Made by a program: the position numbers and the translations under genes | Assembly (NCBI RefSeq): GCF_032362555.1 | Contig: NC_083513.1 | Span: 1,922,001-1,986,000 of the forward strand | Direction of reading: 5' to 3' | Length of the DNA: 64,000 nt | DNA from: Amyelois transitella | Lineage: Eukaryota; Arthropoda; Insecta; Lepidoptera; Pyralidae | Shown here: piece after piece, positions 216 to 38,200 of the stretch | Position numbering within the stretch: position 1 is the first letter of the stretch | Layout of the letters: every line of letters starts with the position of its first letter | Notes under the pieces: model-generated | What the model was told of the DNA's origin: nothing | The model's database searches: none | Seen by the model: the letters and a program-made list of their open reading frames with translations, nothing else

Positions 216-1284
216 AATTCCTTTACTAATGTATCTTTAGTGTGCACTTAAAAATGGCTTGTGTTTAAACGCCTACCAGAAATGCACCTATATTACTTCC
301 AATAAATTCGAAGTGCCTGCCATAACGGATAAATGCTCACCAAATTGTGTATCACAAAATATTCTAGAAATAAAGCTATTTTGCTTTTTATTACATTCTA
401 TAAAAATAAATACACACCTTTAAAGTCAATTTGAGTCCAAATTTTGTAAATTATCGCTAAGGAGATGTTACCAATATTTTATTTTATTACTTTCATTTTA
501 GTTATCTATGCTGAGGGAAAAAATTACAGTCAACCGCAAATATTTTTTTCATACCAAATATAATATTGATTACACCAAACACAAGTTACATAATTAATGC
601 ATTATGCATTTAATTATATATTTTTATGCAGTTACATAATTACTTTGTTGTCAATTATTGCAACAGATAATGACTAAGGTATACAATGAAACAAACCATT
701 GGTAGATGAGGAAATAAAAAATCTAAATTAAAACAGAAATTTTATTAAAGTGTTCATAAGATTAATTTAAGAATAATCAATGGCACTTCAAAAGGAACAC
801 AATAATTACAGTCTTATACAATCTTATCTTATAAGATTAATTTGTACTTAAAAATAATCAATGGCACTTTATATTTTACGTATATATTACGTTTATATTA
901 CGTAATCTTAGCTTGACCATAATATATTTTGGATTTTGGTTACATAATTTGATTACAATAAAGCAAATTTGAACTGTACATTTTGGTATCAATGTTACTG
1001 TTTTAGTGAAACAATATTTGGTGAGCATTAATCCATTTTGGCAATCAAAAAGAATATTTGTACACAACGTACGATTATTCTGACGTGTGTATACTTATTT
1101 TGAAGCTTAATACGTTTTACTTTGGGAAACTAAGTATAGATTGATTTTAATTTATATGGAGTTAATTTATTTTACTGGGTACTAAAATTTGGAAAACAAA
1201 AGCTATTTTGGTGAGCCCTTAAATTGTTGTATAGCAAAAATAAAAGATGCAATTGCCATTGACTGAGCACCGCATGACCCCCAG

Positions 1285-3752
1285 CTGGACGCGCGCTGGG
1301 CGCCGACGCTGGACGCGCTGGGGCACGCGGCGCGCGCGCTGGGCCGGGCGGGCGAGGCGCTGTCGTGGCACTCGCGCGCGCTGGCGCTGCGGCCGGCGCG
1401 CGCGGCGTCGCTGGCGGCGGCCGCGCTGTGCCTGGCGCTGCTGGGCCGGCCGGCCGACGCGGCGCGCTCGGCGCACGCGGCGCTGGCGCGCGACCCCGAC
1501 GACGTGGTCGCGCACACGCTGCTGGACGCCATTCTGGACAAACTGGACGCTGCCGCCGCTGGTAACTTGTTTTCTTAATTGGATACAAGGTGTCACTTGT
1601 TGACGTCGCATCACTTAAATCTTATTGTAACTACTGACGCTTTCGAAGCGCATGTGTAGAAGAAGCGGCGGAACAAACTACACTGCAGCATTTTCATCGG
1701 ACGTCAATATAAAAATATAGATCTCTTAAATCTAAATCGTGGAAGAATGCACATTGTCTACATTAAGAAACATTAATACTACAGTACTAGTTATATACAT
1801 ACTATATAACACCTACTTCTCATAAGTTATGGTTGCTAGTTGAATATTGATGACAAAAGTACAAGACTAAGGAGAATCGTCTTTGTGGAATGAAAATGGT
1901 TCGTAAACTGTTAGGGCAATGTCACACTGGCGTATTACAAGCGTTTGGGCGGAACTGCTTACTGCCTGGCCTTCGCAACCATGCAAGGAATCTATTCCAC
2001 ATTGAATCAAGTAATATGTATACATGGTGTTATACTCGTATATACCTAATATACTGTTAGAATACTATGTGTGTAGCGAGCATCGTGTGCGTGATGCGCA
2101 TAAAGGCACAGGTTCAAATCCCACCCCGTTTAGGCGCGATTGGTCCAATTCGCGATTGGTCCAATTGTCCAATTCGCGATTGGTCCAATTCGCGGTTGGT
2201 CCAATTCGCGACTGGTCCAATTCGCAGTTGGTCCAATTCTCGGTTGGTCCAATTCGCGGTTAGTCCAATTCGCGATTGGTCCAATCATAACAATGAACAA
2301 GCTGTCCGCCCCAGCGTCGCCTGTGAAACATCTTTCCAACGATGAAAGACTTTTTTAATATGAGGACAGTAGTTTATGAGTTTATTCATATCAAACATAC
2401 ATACATACATACAAAAATATAAATTTTTCCTCTTTGTAATATTAGTAGGTATAGATGTATAGATTAATAATTATACAATTACACATTTTTATGTACATGT
2501 ATTGTTTATTTATCATAATCATATTACCAATCACATATGTGTTACAAGCTTCTTATAAATTATAATTGTGTAAGTACTTCGTAAAAAATGAACCAAGTTC
2601 AATAAAAATCAAAAATATACTATGATCGTAAACTTAACACATTCATCACATCTTTCATCAAATATATAAGAGAAAAAAATGTTTATACTCTTACTTATCT
2701 CAAGATAAGGTAGAAAAAAAATATGGCTTTATATAAATATATACATACGTATTTTTAGTCAAAATTATAATAATGTTCAAAGATATAAATAAATGTGACA
2801 AAAATACGTTTTTTCTCTTACTTATCACAAGATAAGGGAAAAAAACTATGGCCACATATTTATATATTCATACGTATTTTTAGTCAAACGTATGATATTA
2901 CAATAATCTTCAAAGATATACATAAATATGATAAAAATATGTTTTTTTTTCTCTTACTCATCACAAGATAAGGGAGAAAAAAAGATTACCATATTTATGT
3001 ATACATTATACATATCAAATCAAAAGTATGTTAAGAAAATTAACCTTAAAGATAATATAACAAATTTTTTTTCTTACTTATTACTAAAAAAAGGAAGAAA
3101 AAAATAAGACAGACTTATTTATGGCACTAGAAAATACTAGTATCGTTGAGTTAGTATCCCATAACACAAGTCTCTCTTACTTTGGGGCTAATTCAATCTG
3201 TGTGATTTCCCATTTATGTATTTAAAAAATAAGATTTTGGACCAATCGCGAATTGGACCTATCGCGAATTGGACCAACTGCGAATTGGACCAAACGCGAA
3301 TTGGACCAACCGAGAATTGGACTAACCGCGAATTGGACCAACCGCGAATTGGACCAACCGCGAATTGGACATTTTTTGCATCTTTGGACCAATCGCGAAT
3401 TGGACCAATCGCGCCTAAAAGTCCCACCCCAGCCATGTACCTTAAGTTATGTACCTACATTAGTTTGAATACTTACTGATGCTCCTACGGTGAAGGAAAA
3501 CATCGTGAGGAAACCTGCTTCTATTATATTAATACCCCGAGGGAGAGGTGAAGATGCAACTGGGGCTTAAAGCCAGGAGGAAGATTATATGTGTATACCA
3601 TTCTCCACATTGTTCCAGTGTTCGCGGACGAGGAGATCCCGCAGTTCCCGTTCCCGGAAGTGGCGGTGCCCCCCGCGCCGCTCACCCCCGCCACGCCCCA
3701 CCCCCGCTCCGACCACACCAACACCTCCGACATGAGCATGAGTTTCGACTGA
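1285..3752 (+). CDS. Cdc16: Cdc16 (APC/C subunit 6), last two coding exons, 5'-partial
   Basis: These are two coding exons, 1285-1561 and 3619-3752. They have an AG acceptor before each and a GT donor at 1562. The junction closes as G|TG (Val) and the stop is TGA at 3750-3752. The first exon encodes about 92 residues of TPR helices with the Cdc16 pattern: a start like LDARWAPTLDALGHAARALG, then EALSWHSRALALRP, then a third helical pair ending LLDAILDKLD. The second encodes a proline-rich tail ending TNTSDMSMSFD, as expected for the phospho-regulated Cdc16 C-terminus. Cdc16 is a TPR scaffold subunit of the anaphase-promoting complex ubiquitin ligase in mitosis. Upstream exons lie outside the window. 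The first exon is extremely GC-rich against an AT-rich background. The intron between the exons carries a foldback-like transposon. The assignment rests on recalled similarity to animal CDC16; another TPR protein is possible but less likely given the tail. Confidence 0.8.
1587..1690 (+). repeat. Dispersed repeat F, copy 1
   Basis: Contains the phrases 'gcatcacttaaatct', 'gcgcatgtgtagaagaagcg' and 'gaacaaactacactgcagca'. The same phrases recur near 20100, 45740-45880 (opposite strand) and 57190. It is a moderately diverged interspersed repeat of unknown class. Confidence 0.55.
2130..2285 (+). repeat. 16-bp minisatellite, left foldback arm
   Basis: About nine imperfect copies of a 16-bp unit (GGTCCAATTCGCGATT with ATT/GTT/ACT variants), one of them with a short internal deletion. 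It is the inverse of the array at 3238-3415. Confidence 0.9.
2680..3105 (+). repeat. Four tandem units of about 125 bp inside the foldback loop
   Basis: A conserved core CTCTTACTTATCACAAGATA recurs at about 2687, 2814, 2951 and, degenerate, 3072, giving spacings of roughly 127, 137 and 121 bp. Each core is bounded by T-rich and A-rich runs that can pair as a hairpin. AT-rich sequence with 'tttttagtcaaa' and 'caaagatata' fills the spacers. Confidence 0.8.
3238..3415 (-). repeat. 16-bp minisatellite, right foldback arm
   Basis: About ten imperfect copies of the same 16-bp unit on the opposite strand, interrupted by a short TTTTTTGCATCTTT segment near 3370. Confidence 0.9.
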
Positions 3753-7548: not shown

Positions 7549-10288
7549 TATACCCCTTTACCTTACCACCCAGCTAAGCGCATTAGTGCAGGAAGACAAT
7601 ATTTTAATAAGTAGTTATTAATTGAATTCAACATTCAGTTAATAATATTTTCTGCAAATCAAAACTTTAATTTAAAAAAAATACGTTCTACGTTTCCAAA
7701 GCCAATTACCATAAATCAATAGAAGTTAGATTCTTGATTGGCTTGATTCTTGAAAAATTATTGATTTGAAGAGTAAGGCAAGCGTAAAGCTAATGCAAAA
7801 AAAATATAACGAAATCTTTACACAGAAAAAAAACCCGACAATTTAATGATTTTGACGTCATACTAGTTTAAAAAAAATATATAAACGGGGGCCAATCAAG
7901 AAAATTGTAGTTAATATTTACATTTATATAGCTTCAGCGATAAAGAATTCATCTCTCAATTTATATTTAATCCCTAAGACGAAGATATAATTAGGTATTA
8001 TTACACGTCAAAAATTAAAAATAATATTACAAATGTAATAAAATAGCAAGTTTTGCAAGATGAAATAACTGAAGCTAAATACACTTTAAATGGATTAAAA
8101 ATATATTGTTTTTTTTTTATCTCAACATATTTCACAAATAGTGAAATCTCTTTAAAACGAAGTGAATGGTTTTTGCAAAATTGTGTTTTGAAAAAAAGTA
8201 TTAGAAATATATCATTAGTAATACGATTTAAAGGCTTTAAAAATACAGTATGCAAATACACGTAGTGGCTAACTACATTAAAAACAAATCAAAAAATTTA
8301 TATAAATTGATTATTCTATACAAAAATAATGTACTAAAAATTAATATGAGAAAAATATATATTTAAATTACTTATTAAATACTTTGATACAGCAATTCCT
8401 TATTAAATTGTCTCTCTAAGAAATGTTTACATCTTATTGGACCTTATCGCTATAGATTTAAAGTCGGAATTGTGCAACTAGCTAGATAAGCACATTTGTC
8501 TCTGTTTTCATAAACAATTGTTTTGAATTCCATTCGTACGAAATATATTTACACTATTATGTGAGTATTTAACTGACTCTATAATAATAAAAAAAATGGG
8601 GACCCCAAATTCAATTCTAATTTAAAAAAATCTCCATTGAAATTAACATCCGATGTAAACTAGTAATGTTGAAATAAATGTGTCTATCTAACTACCACAT
8701 ACCGTCAAAATCGGTCTACCATATGCTACCAAAAATCTTCTAACAGTTTACTGGTACGGACAGACGTATTGCAAACTAGTGGCAAGTCAGTAGATTTCTT
8801 TCATAGTTTGTTTTTAATTGACGCCTTGAATAAAATAAAGTGGACTCAACTCTGCCCATTCCATGATGACAATTGAAAAGTAAATAAGTTTAAGAAGTAA
8901 TGCCACTAGAAGAAGTATTAAGACAATTAGGTCGAAGTTTAAGGAACTGTCCCTGTGAATGAGTTAATTTGTACTGATGCAGAATAGTGCTGACAATGGT
9001 TAAAGATGGATTAAATGAGAAGTTCGGAGAGTATAAGTCGCCTTGCAAATTCATTGGGTACCTATTTTAATTCAATTTTTAATTTTATTAATAAACCTTT
9101 TGATTCGTTACTTTCAAAGCGACGTCATAAGTTGACAGCTGTCAAAGTGACATGGCGATTGAACGTTTGAAAACAAATTTAATGCGAAACAAGCCCTTAT
9201 TTATCTAAAAGAAGAGCCAAGAGCTAAGAGAAAAGAACAAAATAGTCAATCAATAATTATTTACAACACACATTTTATATTCATATAGTAAGAAGTCAAA
9301 TCAATACGTTAGGTATGCGTAGCGCCTATAGGTACCACTCCGTTTATAGGCCAACCAAATCTTTTGATGCCTAACCTATGAAAAGGACGGATAGTTTATA
9401 TGAATACGAAAGAAAATGTTTCTATGGCGACTTTAAAAACAATAAAAAAAAATTATTTTGTTTTTAAACAGAAATTCTCAAATGTAACTTTCGGGGTACC
9501 CTAAATAAACATGTATTTATGTCTATTCCCTAATTCTTATTTATTAAGAAGAAGATGAATTTATTTATATAAATTTATTATTGACAAAAGACTTTTTCGT
9601 TAAGACTGATAGGTAAAATTTGTGATTTCACTTCATGCAGTAAAAAACACTTTCTTTTTACTTTAAAAACTAATAACAATACTACATATTTTATGAAATC
9701 TTATGAAAATTTCATCAATCGTTTATTTTACAATTTATTTGGAAATGAAAGCAAAACAATGTACGAAATTTTGAGGATATAGGAGTCTTACTCTGGCTGA
9801 CATGGATTAGCTACATAGTTAAATGGCTAAACTAGAAAAATTATATGTAACATTCCAAGTTCATAATATGTTTTATACCTTGACAAAAACCTTCATACTC
9901 ATGGTATGTGATACTTTTTTGAAGCTCACTGCGAGCGTGTAGTGGCATAAAGTTAGATGACCCTATTTCAAGTGACTTTTTAGTCAGTATAAAATTTTTC
10001 ATAATATATAATCCGAACAAATTGTACTAACATGAGGCTATGAAAAATTTATTATCCACTCAAATGCAACTTTACATGTTCATATACACCTTGCAATAGA
10101 TAAATTGGTGAAAATTTAATTATAAATCGATCTTATTCTTTGGCGATAGTTGAACTTCACTATTGAAATACAAATACCATCTTAAATTTGACATTACTCT
10201 ATGATAAGGTTCGGAACATTATTTTACATTTTTTTAAATTCTGTACACTCACCTACAGATCAAACTGTATGAGCGGCAATTCCACAGG

Positions 10289-35200: not shown

Positions 35201-38200
35201 CTTGACGAGTGAATTAGACAAGAAGGCTAGTGATTTGTTTCTTTTATAACTATGTACTTACTATTTTCTTGTAACTGTGTAAATTTTTATGCAATAAAGA
35301 TATTACAAACAAACAAACAAGGCTTTGAAGAAGGAGACTGCACATACGAAAGTTGCTTCGTGTAGTTACCTCATTTACCGACAAGCAAAGCAAACATTTA
35401 TCTTTAAAGACCAGTCTAAGAGTCCAGTGCCGTGTGGTTCCCGGCATTAATACAAAAAAAAATAGGATCACTCCATCTCTTTCCCGTGGACGTCGTAAAA
35501 GGCGACTAAGGGATAGGATAGCCCATCGCCTAAAAAATAATCTCAAGTTTGTAAAACTTGGGATTATTTTTTAGGCGATGGGCTAGCAACTTGTCACTAT
35601 TTGAATCTCAATTATATCATTAAGCCAAATAGCTGAACGTGGCCTTTCAGTCTTTTCAAGACTGTTAGCTCTGTTTACCACACAAGGGACACACGTGACC
35701 ATATGTATGTATTTATGTACTATTGTCCAATCAGGTGCCATTCGACGGGCTAAGGCAGGTGTTTCCCCCAGTGGCAGCAATGGTCCTCACCTGCATCATA
35801 TACACGCCTCTGCAGATGGTCTTCACTTATCCAGTCATCAAGTTAACCGGAGGTCTTATAGGTATGTATACTTTGCAAAAAATGGTGCCGTGTGGTTCCC
35901 GGCAGTGCCGTGTGGTTCCCGGCAGTGCCGTGTGGTTCCCGGCAGTGCCGTGTGGTTCCCGGCAGTGCCGTGTGGTTCCCGGCAGTGCCGTGTTGTTCCC
36001 GGCAGTGCCGTGTGGTTCCCGGCAGTGCCATGTGGTTTACCGGCAGTGCCGTGTGGTTCCCGGCACCAATACAAAAAAGAATAGGACCACTTCATCTCTT
36101 TACCATGGATGTCGTAAAAGGCGACTAATGGATAGGCTTACAATCTTGGGATACTTTTTTAGGCGATGGGCTAGCAACCTGTCACTATTTGAATCTCAAC
36201 TCTATCATTAAGCCAAATAGCTGAACGTGGCCATTCAGTCTTTTCAAGACTGTTGGCTCTGTCTACCCCGCAAGGGATGTAGACGTGACCATATATATGT
36301 AGGTATGTATGTCATTACCAAATAAGCTTCTATCACGGCCCATGACGCATCACTAATTGATTAGTCCAATTTCATTCAATATTTAACTGGTAAAGTCTAA
36401 ATATACGTTTACGATGACCTCCATAGCGAATTCCATCTTCAATTTATAATAACTTATTATAATTGTTGAATACGCATTGGACCTATAAACGTCGCCTCTT
36501 CATTTCATTCAAGGTTGAAAACTACATAAGTGCGACTATTAATTTATTGTTTGCGGTAGTGCCAAAGATCTTATGTCTAGTTTTTTTTTATTGTTTGTTT
36601 GTAAACTTTTTATTGCACATAAAAATAAATATAACAAATGACAAAACAGTTATTGGATTAAGAAGAATATGTACATTTAGTATTTTTATTTGTTTTTATT
36701 TTGTCATTGTTTAGCTTTCTAGTTTGTTTGCAATCTGATACAATTCAAACTAGTTGGCTAATGTTTTAGTTGTTTTGAAGACACAAATGATTCTTATGTC
36801 TAGTTGATAGAAGGAGGCGTGTGCCATACAGCTGAACTTGGCCTTGCAGTCTTTTCGAGACCATTGGCTCTGTCTACCCCGCAGGGGATATAGACGTGAC
36901 TATATGAATGTATGTCGATAGAAAAGTATACCGTCTAGTGGACTGAACTTCTGAGGACGAAAAATTTTGTCGTCGACCACATTATCGTCTGAGAACAGTT
37001 TCAGACTACTCGTAAGATTTATGGTGCCCTTTGCCAGTAGCAATGTCCAACATTATAAACTCTGACACAATAACGATGTGAAGTGTCATTTAATCTGAAC
37101 TAGATTTCCTCCTTACCTATAAATCAATTATTTGCTCACTGTCGCTAATATGTTCACGAAACATAAATACTTAAAGGTATGCTATAAAACAGACATTTAA
37201 CCGCGACATTTGTGTTAGTTGTTATGACATCGAGGTTACAATGCTAAATGTCTAGATCGCGGGGCAAATTTTATGGCAAACAGAAACTGTAAGCTCAAAG
37301 ATCGAGCCACGATCAGGTCAAGGAAGTTAAAACATGAACATATTGTCCAGTAATAATAGGTAAAGAAAGAAAGAAAGAAAATCAACAAACTTTTCGACCA
37401 ATTACAAAAACAGTGGAGTATCTGAATTCGTCAAATCTCATTGATTATCTCACGAAGGTAGATATTGTTTATATCAATGTGTACCTACCTATAATTATCG
37501 TATGAATGTAAATTATCAATTAGCGTTATTTATTTAGGTATAATAAACTCATTCGTTACTTAGTCATAAAGTGTGAATGATTAACAAATAATGAATGAAG
37601 TGAAAGATGCAAAGATCGTTGCAACTGGAAACTGTCTTTGCCTACCCCTCCGGAAAAGAGATGTGATTTTATGTATACATACATACATACATAAGATCAC
37701 GTCTTTATCCCTTACGGGGTAGACAGAGCCAACAGTCTTGAAAAGACTGATAGGCCACGTTCAGCTGTTTGGCTTAATGATAGAATTGAGATTCAAATAG
37801 TACTTGCTAGCCCATCGCCTAAAAGAAGAATCCCAAGTTTATAAGCCTATCCCTTAGTCGCATTTTACGACATCCGTGGGAACGAGATGGAGTGGTCCTA
37901 TTCCTTTTTTTTATTGGTGCCGGGAACCACACGGCACTGATTTTATGTAGGTATGTATGTAAAATTTCTGGGGTTCAAATTTTACTTTAGTGAAAAATAG
38001 TTTAGTTTAAATTTGGTTTTAGTGATCGGACTGAGCGAAAAATTTCCAATACTCCCGCGGGATTTTAAACAAGGGGATTTTACGTTTTACGTGAGCAGAC
38101 TCGCAAATAAGCTAAGTCACAGATAATACGCTTTATTGTACGTATCATAAAAGTGCAATAATTACGGCATCAAAACTAGAGATAACAGTACAAAGGCGGT

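Follow-up and report, generated by a model that had tools for sequence, protein, structure and literature searches.

What kind of element is formed by the two inverted arrays of short direct repeats in the last intron of Cdc16 in the moth Amyelois transitella, and is there a source of the enzyme that could have moved it? We addressed this question in a stretch of 64,000 nucleotides (NC_083513.1, positions 1,922,001 to 1,986,000), here called the window, to which all positions given without a contig refer. Contigs and extracted loci of the genome are numbered with the prefixes C and L, respectively.

Structure of the element

The element is 1,294 bp in size (2128-3421, no strand assigned) and is bounded by two inverted arms built of 16-bp direct repeats. 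The left terminal inverted repeat (TIR; 2128-2286, plus strand) begins with the terminus GTTTAGGCGCG and the right one (3236-3421, minus strand) with CTTTTAGGCGCG. Each terminus is followed by 9 recognisable units of CGCGATTGGTCCAATT with at most 2 substitutions, placed in opposite orientation in the two arms and with one interruption in the right arm. TRF reported a period of 16 at 2135-2285 and 3237-3370, and a period of 48 at 3237-3413. All 16 matches to the 12-mer GGTCCAATTCGC in the whole window (up to 1 mismatch) were confined to the arms; shuffled sequences gave 0.14 matches on average, with 16 reached in none of 100 shuffles. In a predicted single-strand DNA fold, computed without a shuffled baseline, the arms pair over most of their length. 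Long TIRs that consist mostly of short direct repeats are the architecture of foldback elements, and the foldback-type anatomy described in a first-pass annotation of this DNA was exact to the coordinate.

In the AT-rich interior, a tandem repeat with a unit of 125-136 bp is present in about 2-2.5 copies (2660-3030, plus strand; TRF), and a CTTACTTATCACAAGATAAGGG-like inverted motif can be seen there by eye. Close to the right arm lies a segment (3138-3224, plus strand) with dispersed copies of 80-89% identity elsewhere in the genome; these account for at least 33 of 52 matches to the element, among 40 scored of 1,288 candidates. We refer to it as a nested SINE-like repeat of which the 3' part is retained, the SINE class being a label given by eye; ARAGORN and Rfam returned neither a tRNA nor a known RNA family for it.

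Upstream of the element, an open frame at 1267-1578 (plus strand, splice sites not fixed) corresponds to the TPR exon region of Cdc16. A phmmer search of PDB matched it to human CDC16 at 5.3e-9, and to an engineered TPR protein at a better value of 4e-11. The last coding exon of Cdc16, read by eye in the list of open reading frames, is located at about 3612-3752.

The insertion site

The element is flanked by the exact 9-mer TCCCACCCC on both sides (2119-2127 and 3422-3430, plus strand), and neither strand of the window contains a further copy of this 9-mer. Genomic matches and alignments showed that the flanks are the two parts of a dispersed repeat (2088-3518, plus strand) that was split by the insertion into 2088-2127 and 3431 to about 3518; it was likened by eye to a tRNA-type SINE. 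A 24-mer spanning the joined flanks, in which the duplication is present once, gave 1,154 genomic matches with up to 3 mismatches (589 + 565), and its reversed-pattern control none. All 30 of the copies that were fetched align over the join with nothing inserted. Since these copies were chosen by the 24-mer across the join, their emptiness follows from the choice; support that is independent of it comes from the abundance of the repeat, from the 20 alignments of the 30 that extend well past the 24-mer on both sides, and from two loci fetched for another reason (L041 and L042) that also align over the join. A third such locus, L044, aligns in two separate pieces.

The 9-mer region is single in each of the 30 copies, as the exact TCCCACCCC in 10 and as one-base variants in 20. 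Because uninterrupted copies of the dispersed repeat elsewhere hold the region once, the 9-mer is, on these alignments, a true 9-bp target-site duplication (TSD) and not a piece of a larger duplicated block. The duplication had been noted in the first-pass annotation, with membership of a larger block named as the finding that would overturn it; that reading is contradicted by the joined flanks, which match repeat copies with a single region. A length of 9 bp lies within the 8-10 bp of target duplications in Mutator-like elements (MULEs).

A longer sister copy with a transposase gene

Genome searches identified a longer, near-identical sister of 3,171 bp on another contig (G000:C32:9811253-9814423). 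A global alignment of about 1,290 bases of the two copies shows 2 substitutions, besides a one-base indel in a T-run and 1,877 extra bases in the sister; their left-most bases also differ (GTTTAGG in the window copy, CTTTTAGG in the sister). The extra bases hold an uninterrupted minus-strand open reading frame (ORF) of 457 codons together with the 5' part of the nested dispersed repeat, which is present in a longer version in the sister. The 125-136 bp tandem repeat lies downstream of the ORF. The sister (L009 3054-6224) is itself flanked by a BEL-like ORF on the left, with a match to DUF1759, and by LINE-like sequence, recognised by eye, on the right.

The bases missing from the window copy (L009:4064-5940) correspond to a junction at 3137-3138, without strand. 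With them the transposase ORF was lost in its entirety, as was the 5' part of the nested repeat, of which the window copy keeps the 3' part alone, ending abruptly at the junction. Because the junction falls inside the nested repeat, the alignment identifies the window copy as a deleted form that descended from one with both the ORF and the repeat. The earlier description of the element as a non-autonomous copy lacking a transposase is thus borne out, and the helper that it predicted elsewhere in the genome has its counterpart in the C32 sister, with matching arms and a 457-aa transposase.

The divergence of 2 in about 1,290 sites corresponds to 0.15%, with a Poisson range of about 0.02-0.56%. 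At an assumed rate of 2.9e-9 substitutions per site and generation, the two copies would have separated roughly 270,000 generations ago, with a wide error.

No target duplication was found at the C32 sister: no exact match was obtained at 7-10 bp and nearby offsets, and the best match had 2 mismatches in 7 bases. With the same offsets, an exact 9-mer was found in 4 of 500 random position pairs. The sister may be a rearranged copy, as judged from its ends.

The transposase

The sister transposase is 457 aa long and is encoded by a single open frame. It contains a MULE domain (PF10551; 9.9e-12, 45.6 bits against a cut-off of 27.6) and an N-terminal FLYWCH zinc finger (PF04500; 1.3e-7, 32.1 bits against a cut-off of 23.6). 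Three weaker Pfam models scored below their cut-offs, two of them transposase models and one a ZSWIM RNase-H-like domain. Up to E = 1, Pfam gave neither a P-element or THAP domain, as expected for Galileo, nor a PHD finger, as present in the transposase of Rehavkus (PMC6446971). Sequence searches of PDB returned no relatives up to E = 10, and one scan of IMG/VR with peptide patterns of this protein, which detects close relatives only, returned no viral ones.

By motif and spacing, D190, D256, H280 and E369 are the putative catalytic residues, and all four are shared in an alignment with two proteins that represent two other MULE families of the same genome. Their counterparts in the Muta1 transposase of Aedes aegypti, matched by spacing and local motif and not by alignment, are D214, D283, H307 and E419. 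The D-D distance is 66 here and 69 in Muta1, and the D-H distance is 24 in both, whereas the 113 residues between D256 and E369 are fewer than the 136 in Muta1 and also fall below the 120-135 given for 8 of 12 arthropod clades (PMC13359780).

Because the near-identical sister encodes a FLYWCH and MULE transposase, the window copy is, on sequence grounds, a member of the Mutator (MULE) superfamily, and its TIRs are common to a transposase-coding and a non-autonomous copy. The foldback label used in the first-pass annotation holds for the architecture of the element and is to be revised as to its superfamily. Within the superfamily, Phantom elements are described as having 8-10-bp TSDs and a zinc finger of the FLYWCH or SWIM type or none (PMC6446971); the N-terminal FLYWCH domain of the sister agrees with this, and is not exclusive to Phantom. 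In aphid Phantoms a minisatellite is listed after the transposase ORF, where the sister has its 125-136 bp tandem repeat (2-2.5 copies), a comparison of position alone.

Origin of the window copy

We are highly confident that the window element is a recently inserted, non-autonomous, foldback-like MULE of the type with a FLYWCH transposase (the Phantom/Muta1/Tm1 kind). A copy of a second MULE family in this genome, with long TIRs and a TSD (L080, below), is a further point in favour of this reading. Counting against it are the lack of a target duplication at the C32 sister, at most of the other paired termini and at a copy of another family (L079, below), the short D256-E369 distance and the absence of PDB relatives. 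The anatomy, the target duplication, the empty sites, the sister copy, its ORF and the protein domains are direct observations, from which the following history can be proposed. A full-length ancestor would have had tandem-repeat TIRs and a 457-aa transposase, with the nested SINE-like repeat inside. A stretch of 1,877 bp with the entire transposase gene would have been deleted from one copy, presumably by faulty gap repair, and insertion into a SINE-like repeat of the Cdc16 intron would have generated the 9-bp target duplication. The FLYWCH domain may bind the numerous 16-bp units in the two arms, and the transposase may cut at the (G/C)TTT(T)AGGCGCG termini, with staggered cuts 9 bp apart upon insertion. 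Deletion copies would be moved in trans by the transposase of a full-length sister.

The loss could have occurred before or after the insertion into Cdc16. If after, the element entered the gene at full length and the 1,877 bp disappeared in place. This would leave the identification of the element untouched, but the window copy as it stands would have undergone no transposition in trans. We assign this order of events a substantial chance, somewhat short of even. It is consistent with the outcome of our searches, in which the near-identical copies of the family numbered two and no second copy of the deleted form came up to show that this form moves. Nothing direct speaks against it; deletion derivatives, termed Tm1-D, have been reported for Tm1 of Meloidogyne (PMC3169594), and natural non-autonomous copies of Muta1 have been tested for excision in yeast (PMC5225508).

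Other explanations concern the nature of the element or the direction of change. The C32 copy could be the derived one, a short element like that of the window having captured the transposase gene and the nested repeat. The arms give no direction, since both are common to the two copies. The nested repeat of the window copy, however, is a 3' part that stops abruptly where C32 continues with the repeat and the ORF, and we regard such a gain as very improbable. Equally improbable is a foldback element of another lineage, either Drosophila FB with NOF or Galileo of the P superfamily, that resembles a MULE in anatomy only. In its favour, arms that are inverted and consist of short direct repeats, as well as duplications of 9 bp, are what would be expected of FB. 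The near-identical sister nevertheless carries a FLYWCH and MULE protein between the same arms, and Pfam detected no P-element or THAP domain in it up to E = 1. We have set the FB and Galileo lineages aside on the evidence of the protein domains of the sister. Finally, a satellite-like inverted array with an accidental 9-mer on either side has a negligible probability: no point in its favour was found, and against it stand the unit count that no shuffle reached, the uninterrupted paralogous sites and the near-identical copy on another contig. A suggestive anatomy has in this way become a resolved case, in which one genome provides the deleted copy, its target duplication, uninterrupted paralogous sites and a sister that encodes the transposase.

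Family copies and other MULEs in the genome

The terminus, searched as a 22-mer, gave 35 genomic matches with up to 3 mismatches, 5 of which were exact, as compared to a single match for the reversed control. We cut out 30 of the 35 as loci; besides the window and C32 copies, those examined were short and diverged in appearance. Ten loci had a possible partner terminus downstream, some of the partners being weak, and an abutting exact duplication was seen in the window copy only. Near-matches were found on C13 (9290101-9290396, 8 of 8 bases) and on C6 (2740045, 7 of 8 bases), both of which need a shift of up to 4 bases, and there was no duplication at the other 7 of the 10 loci. The ORF-bearing interior was found once in full and twice as a fragment (70% and 68% identity), each time on C32.

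On C13 (L040, C13:9282000-9291990), a MULE terminus and its flank occur twice in inverted orientation, at about 2464-2607 and 8083-8227 and about 5.5 kb apart (146 bp, 90%), as would be seen after a rearrangement. This pair and the C32 copy without a target duplication are hints, seen in sequence comparisons, in the direction of the earlier suggestion that the family could provoke rearrangements.

A genome search with the transposase as query yielded at least 95 matches, with 93 of 147 candidates scored. Among the matches were further MULE families with open frames: at least 13 copies at 38% identity (12 of one score) and at least 14 at 33% (13 of one score), in addition to at least 5 at 42% (3 of one score) and at least 7 at 34%, where an equal score is no proof that copies are identical. 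Seven copies at 34%, all of one score (on C1, C3, C10, C24 and C27, and two on C14), have one in-frame TGA in common, which could represent an intron, read-through or dead copies moved in trans.

We read one copy each of the 38% and 42% families. That of the 38% family (L080) has 183-bp TIRs with 84% complementarity, a weak 16-bp periodicity (62-64% matches), the terminus CCTTTAGTCGCAG and the exact 8-bp TSD GTTTTTTC. In that of the 42% family (L079), the inverted ends measure 66 bp and are accompanied by arrays with other periods; no exact duplication was found in the scanned range. With several further families, open frames and many copies of equal score, this genome is well suited for studies of how tandem-repeat TIRs are shared and retained.

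Short inverted arrays of related 16-bp units were also seen at L041 (2832-3030) and L044 (2587-2785), the two that we read, where the ends are GGGCGCATTATGTCC-like; arrays are present in L042, L043 and L045 as well. Arrays of this type possibly represent a sister group of MITE-like elements. Elsewhere in the window (35885-36065), nine head-to-tail copies of GTGCCGTGTGGTTCCCGGCA (95% matches) run into an apparent dispersed repeat with the same motif at its head. Similar motifs were noticed by eye in L028 and L036, and a reading by eye is that of a minisatellite seeded at the head of the repeat.

C32 as a probable W chromosome

The 19 contigs of C1-C29 for which lengths were compared are in size order, and both C31 (14.0 Mb) and C32 (12.4 Mb) are out of order. 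The Z marker TIM and the gene for 6-PGD were both located on C31. In several Lepidoptera, the latter gene is Z-linked and lies close to Masc (PMC13087858). Chiefly because these two marker genes place the Z on C31, C32 is probably the W. Weaker support comes from the distribution of the MULE matches, 13 of 95 of which are on C32 and 1 on C31; with neighbours within 5 kb merged, 8 of 86 loci are on C32, where 3.3 would be expected (binomial 0.016). In single 6-kb samples, C32 contained 6 frames of at least 120 aa, some transposon-like by eye, and C31 contained 1.

The only full-length transposase copy found for the family is thus probably W-linked. Were it the sole one and W-linked, deleted autosomal copies would be mobile only in females or through the maternal line, and the activity of a transposon would be inherited with a sex chromosome. 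We consider this unlikely, although far from negligible; a revised count, in which the excess of MULE matches on C32 was smaller, has made it slightly less probable. No report of female-limited mobility via a W-linked autonomous transposase in Lepidoptera was found in the open-access papers searched. If the W location is true, sex-limited mobility would be directly testable.

Comparison with known foldback-like elements

In the Foldback (FB) elements of Drosophila, the arms consist of short direct repeats and the target is duplicated over 9 bp. The moth element is like FB in both respects, a likeness of anatomy. FB elements are named in two of the papers considered here (PMC4079207, PMC3169594).

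The first-pass annotation had thought of a possibly undescribed lepidopteran foldback family. The kind itself is not undescribed: foldback-like MULEs whose TIRs contain short tandem repeats are in print for a mosquito (PMC5225508) and a nematode (PMC3169594), and MULEs have been reported from 88 lepidopteran species in a 2026 survey of arthropods (PMC13359780). For Lepidoptera, complete MULEs in the survey are 2,698-9,206 bp in size, with transposases of 313-518 aa and TIRs of 24-1,193 bp, and the sister falls within all three ranges with its 3,171 bp, 457 aa and arms of 159-186 bp (PMC13359780). The words foldback, FLYWCH and tandem repeat do not occur in the main text of the survey (PMC13359780), and one plant paper apart, no report of foldback MULEs in Lepidoptera was found in the open-access papers searched.

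The organisation is like that of Muta1, as compared by description of units, termini and proteins and not letter for letter (PMC5225508). Muta1 is described as 3,198 bp in full length, with 8-9-bp TSDs, a FLYWCH and DDE transposase, and TIRs of 145 bp in which a terminal motif of 10 bp is followed by a 12-bp unit repeated 9 times, with spacers of 3-4 bp and hence a period of 15-16 bp (PMC5225508). It has more than 300 putative non-autonomous derivatives and is classed by its authors as a type 2 Foldback TE; in the same study, 10 of 12 long-TIR families had short subterminal tandem repeats (PMC5225508). The Muta1 protein has 504 aa encoded in two exons, as compared to 457 aa in one open frame in the sister, and Muta1 is active in yeast, whereas the C32 transposase is known here from its sequence (PMC5225508).

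Tm1, a Mutator/Foldback family of Meloidogyne, has composite TIRs of mostly 14-bp tandem units, 9-bp TSDs, and one transposase-coding copy (496 aa, FLYWCH and MULE) besides deleted and MITE-like forms (PMC3169594). The moth family resembles it in the tandem-unit TIRs, the 9-bp TSD and the combination of a transposase-coding with a deleted copy, but differs from it in host, in that Tm1 resides in a nematode, has asymmetric 7-bp outer motifs and encodes a transposase split by introns (PMC3169594). Tm1 is inactive according to its authors (PMC3169594), whereas the two copies in the moth are only two substitutions apart. The element in Cdc16 is a new member of the kind known as Muta1 and Tm1.
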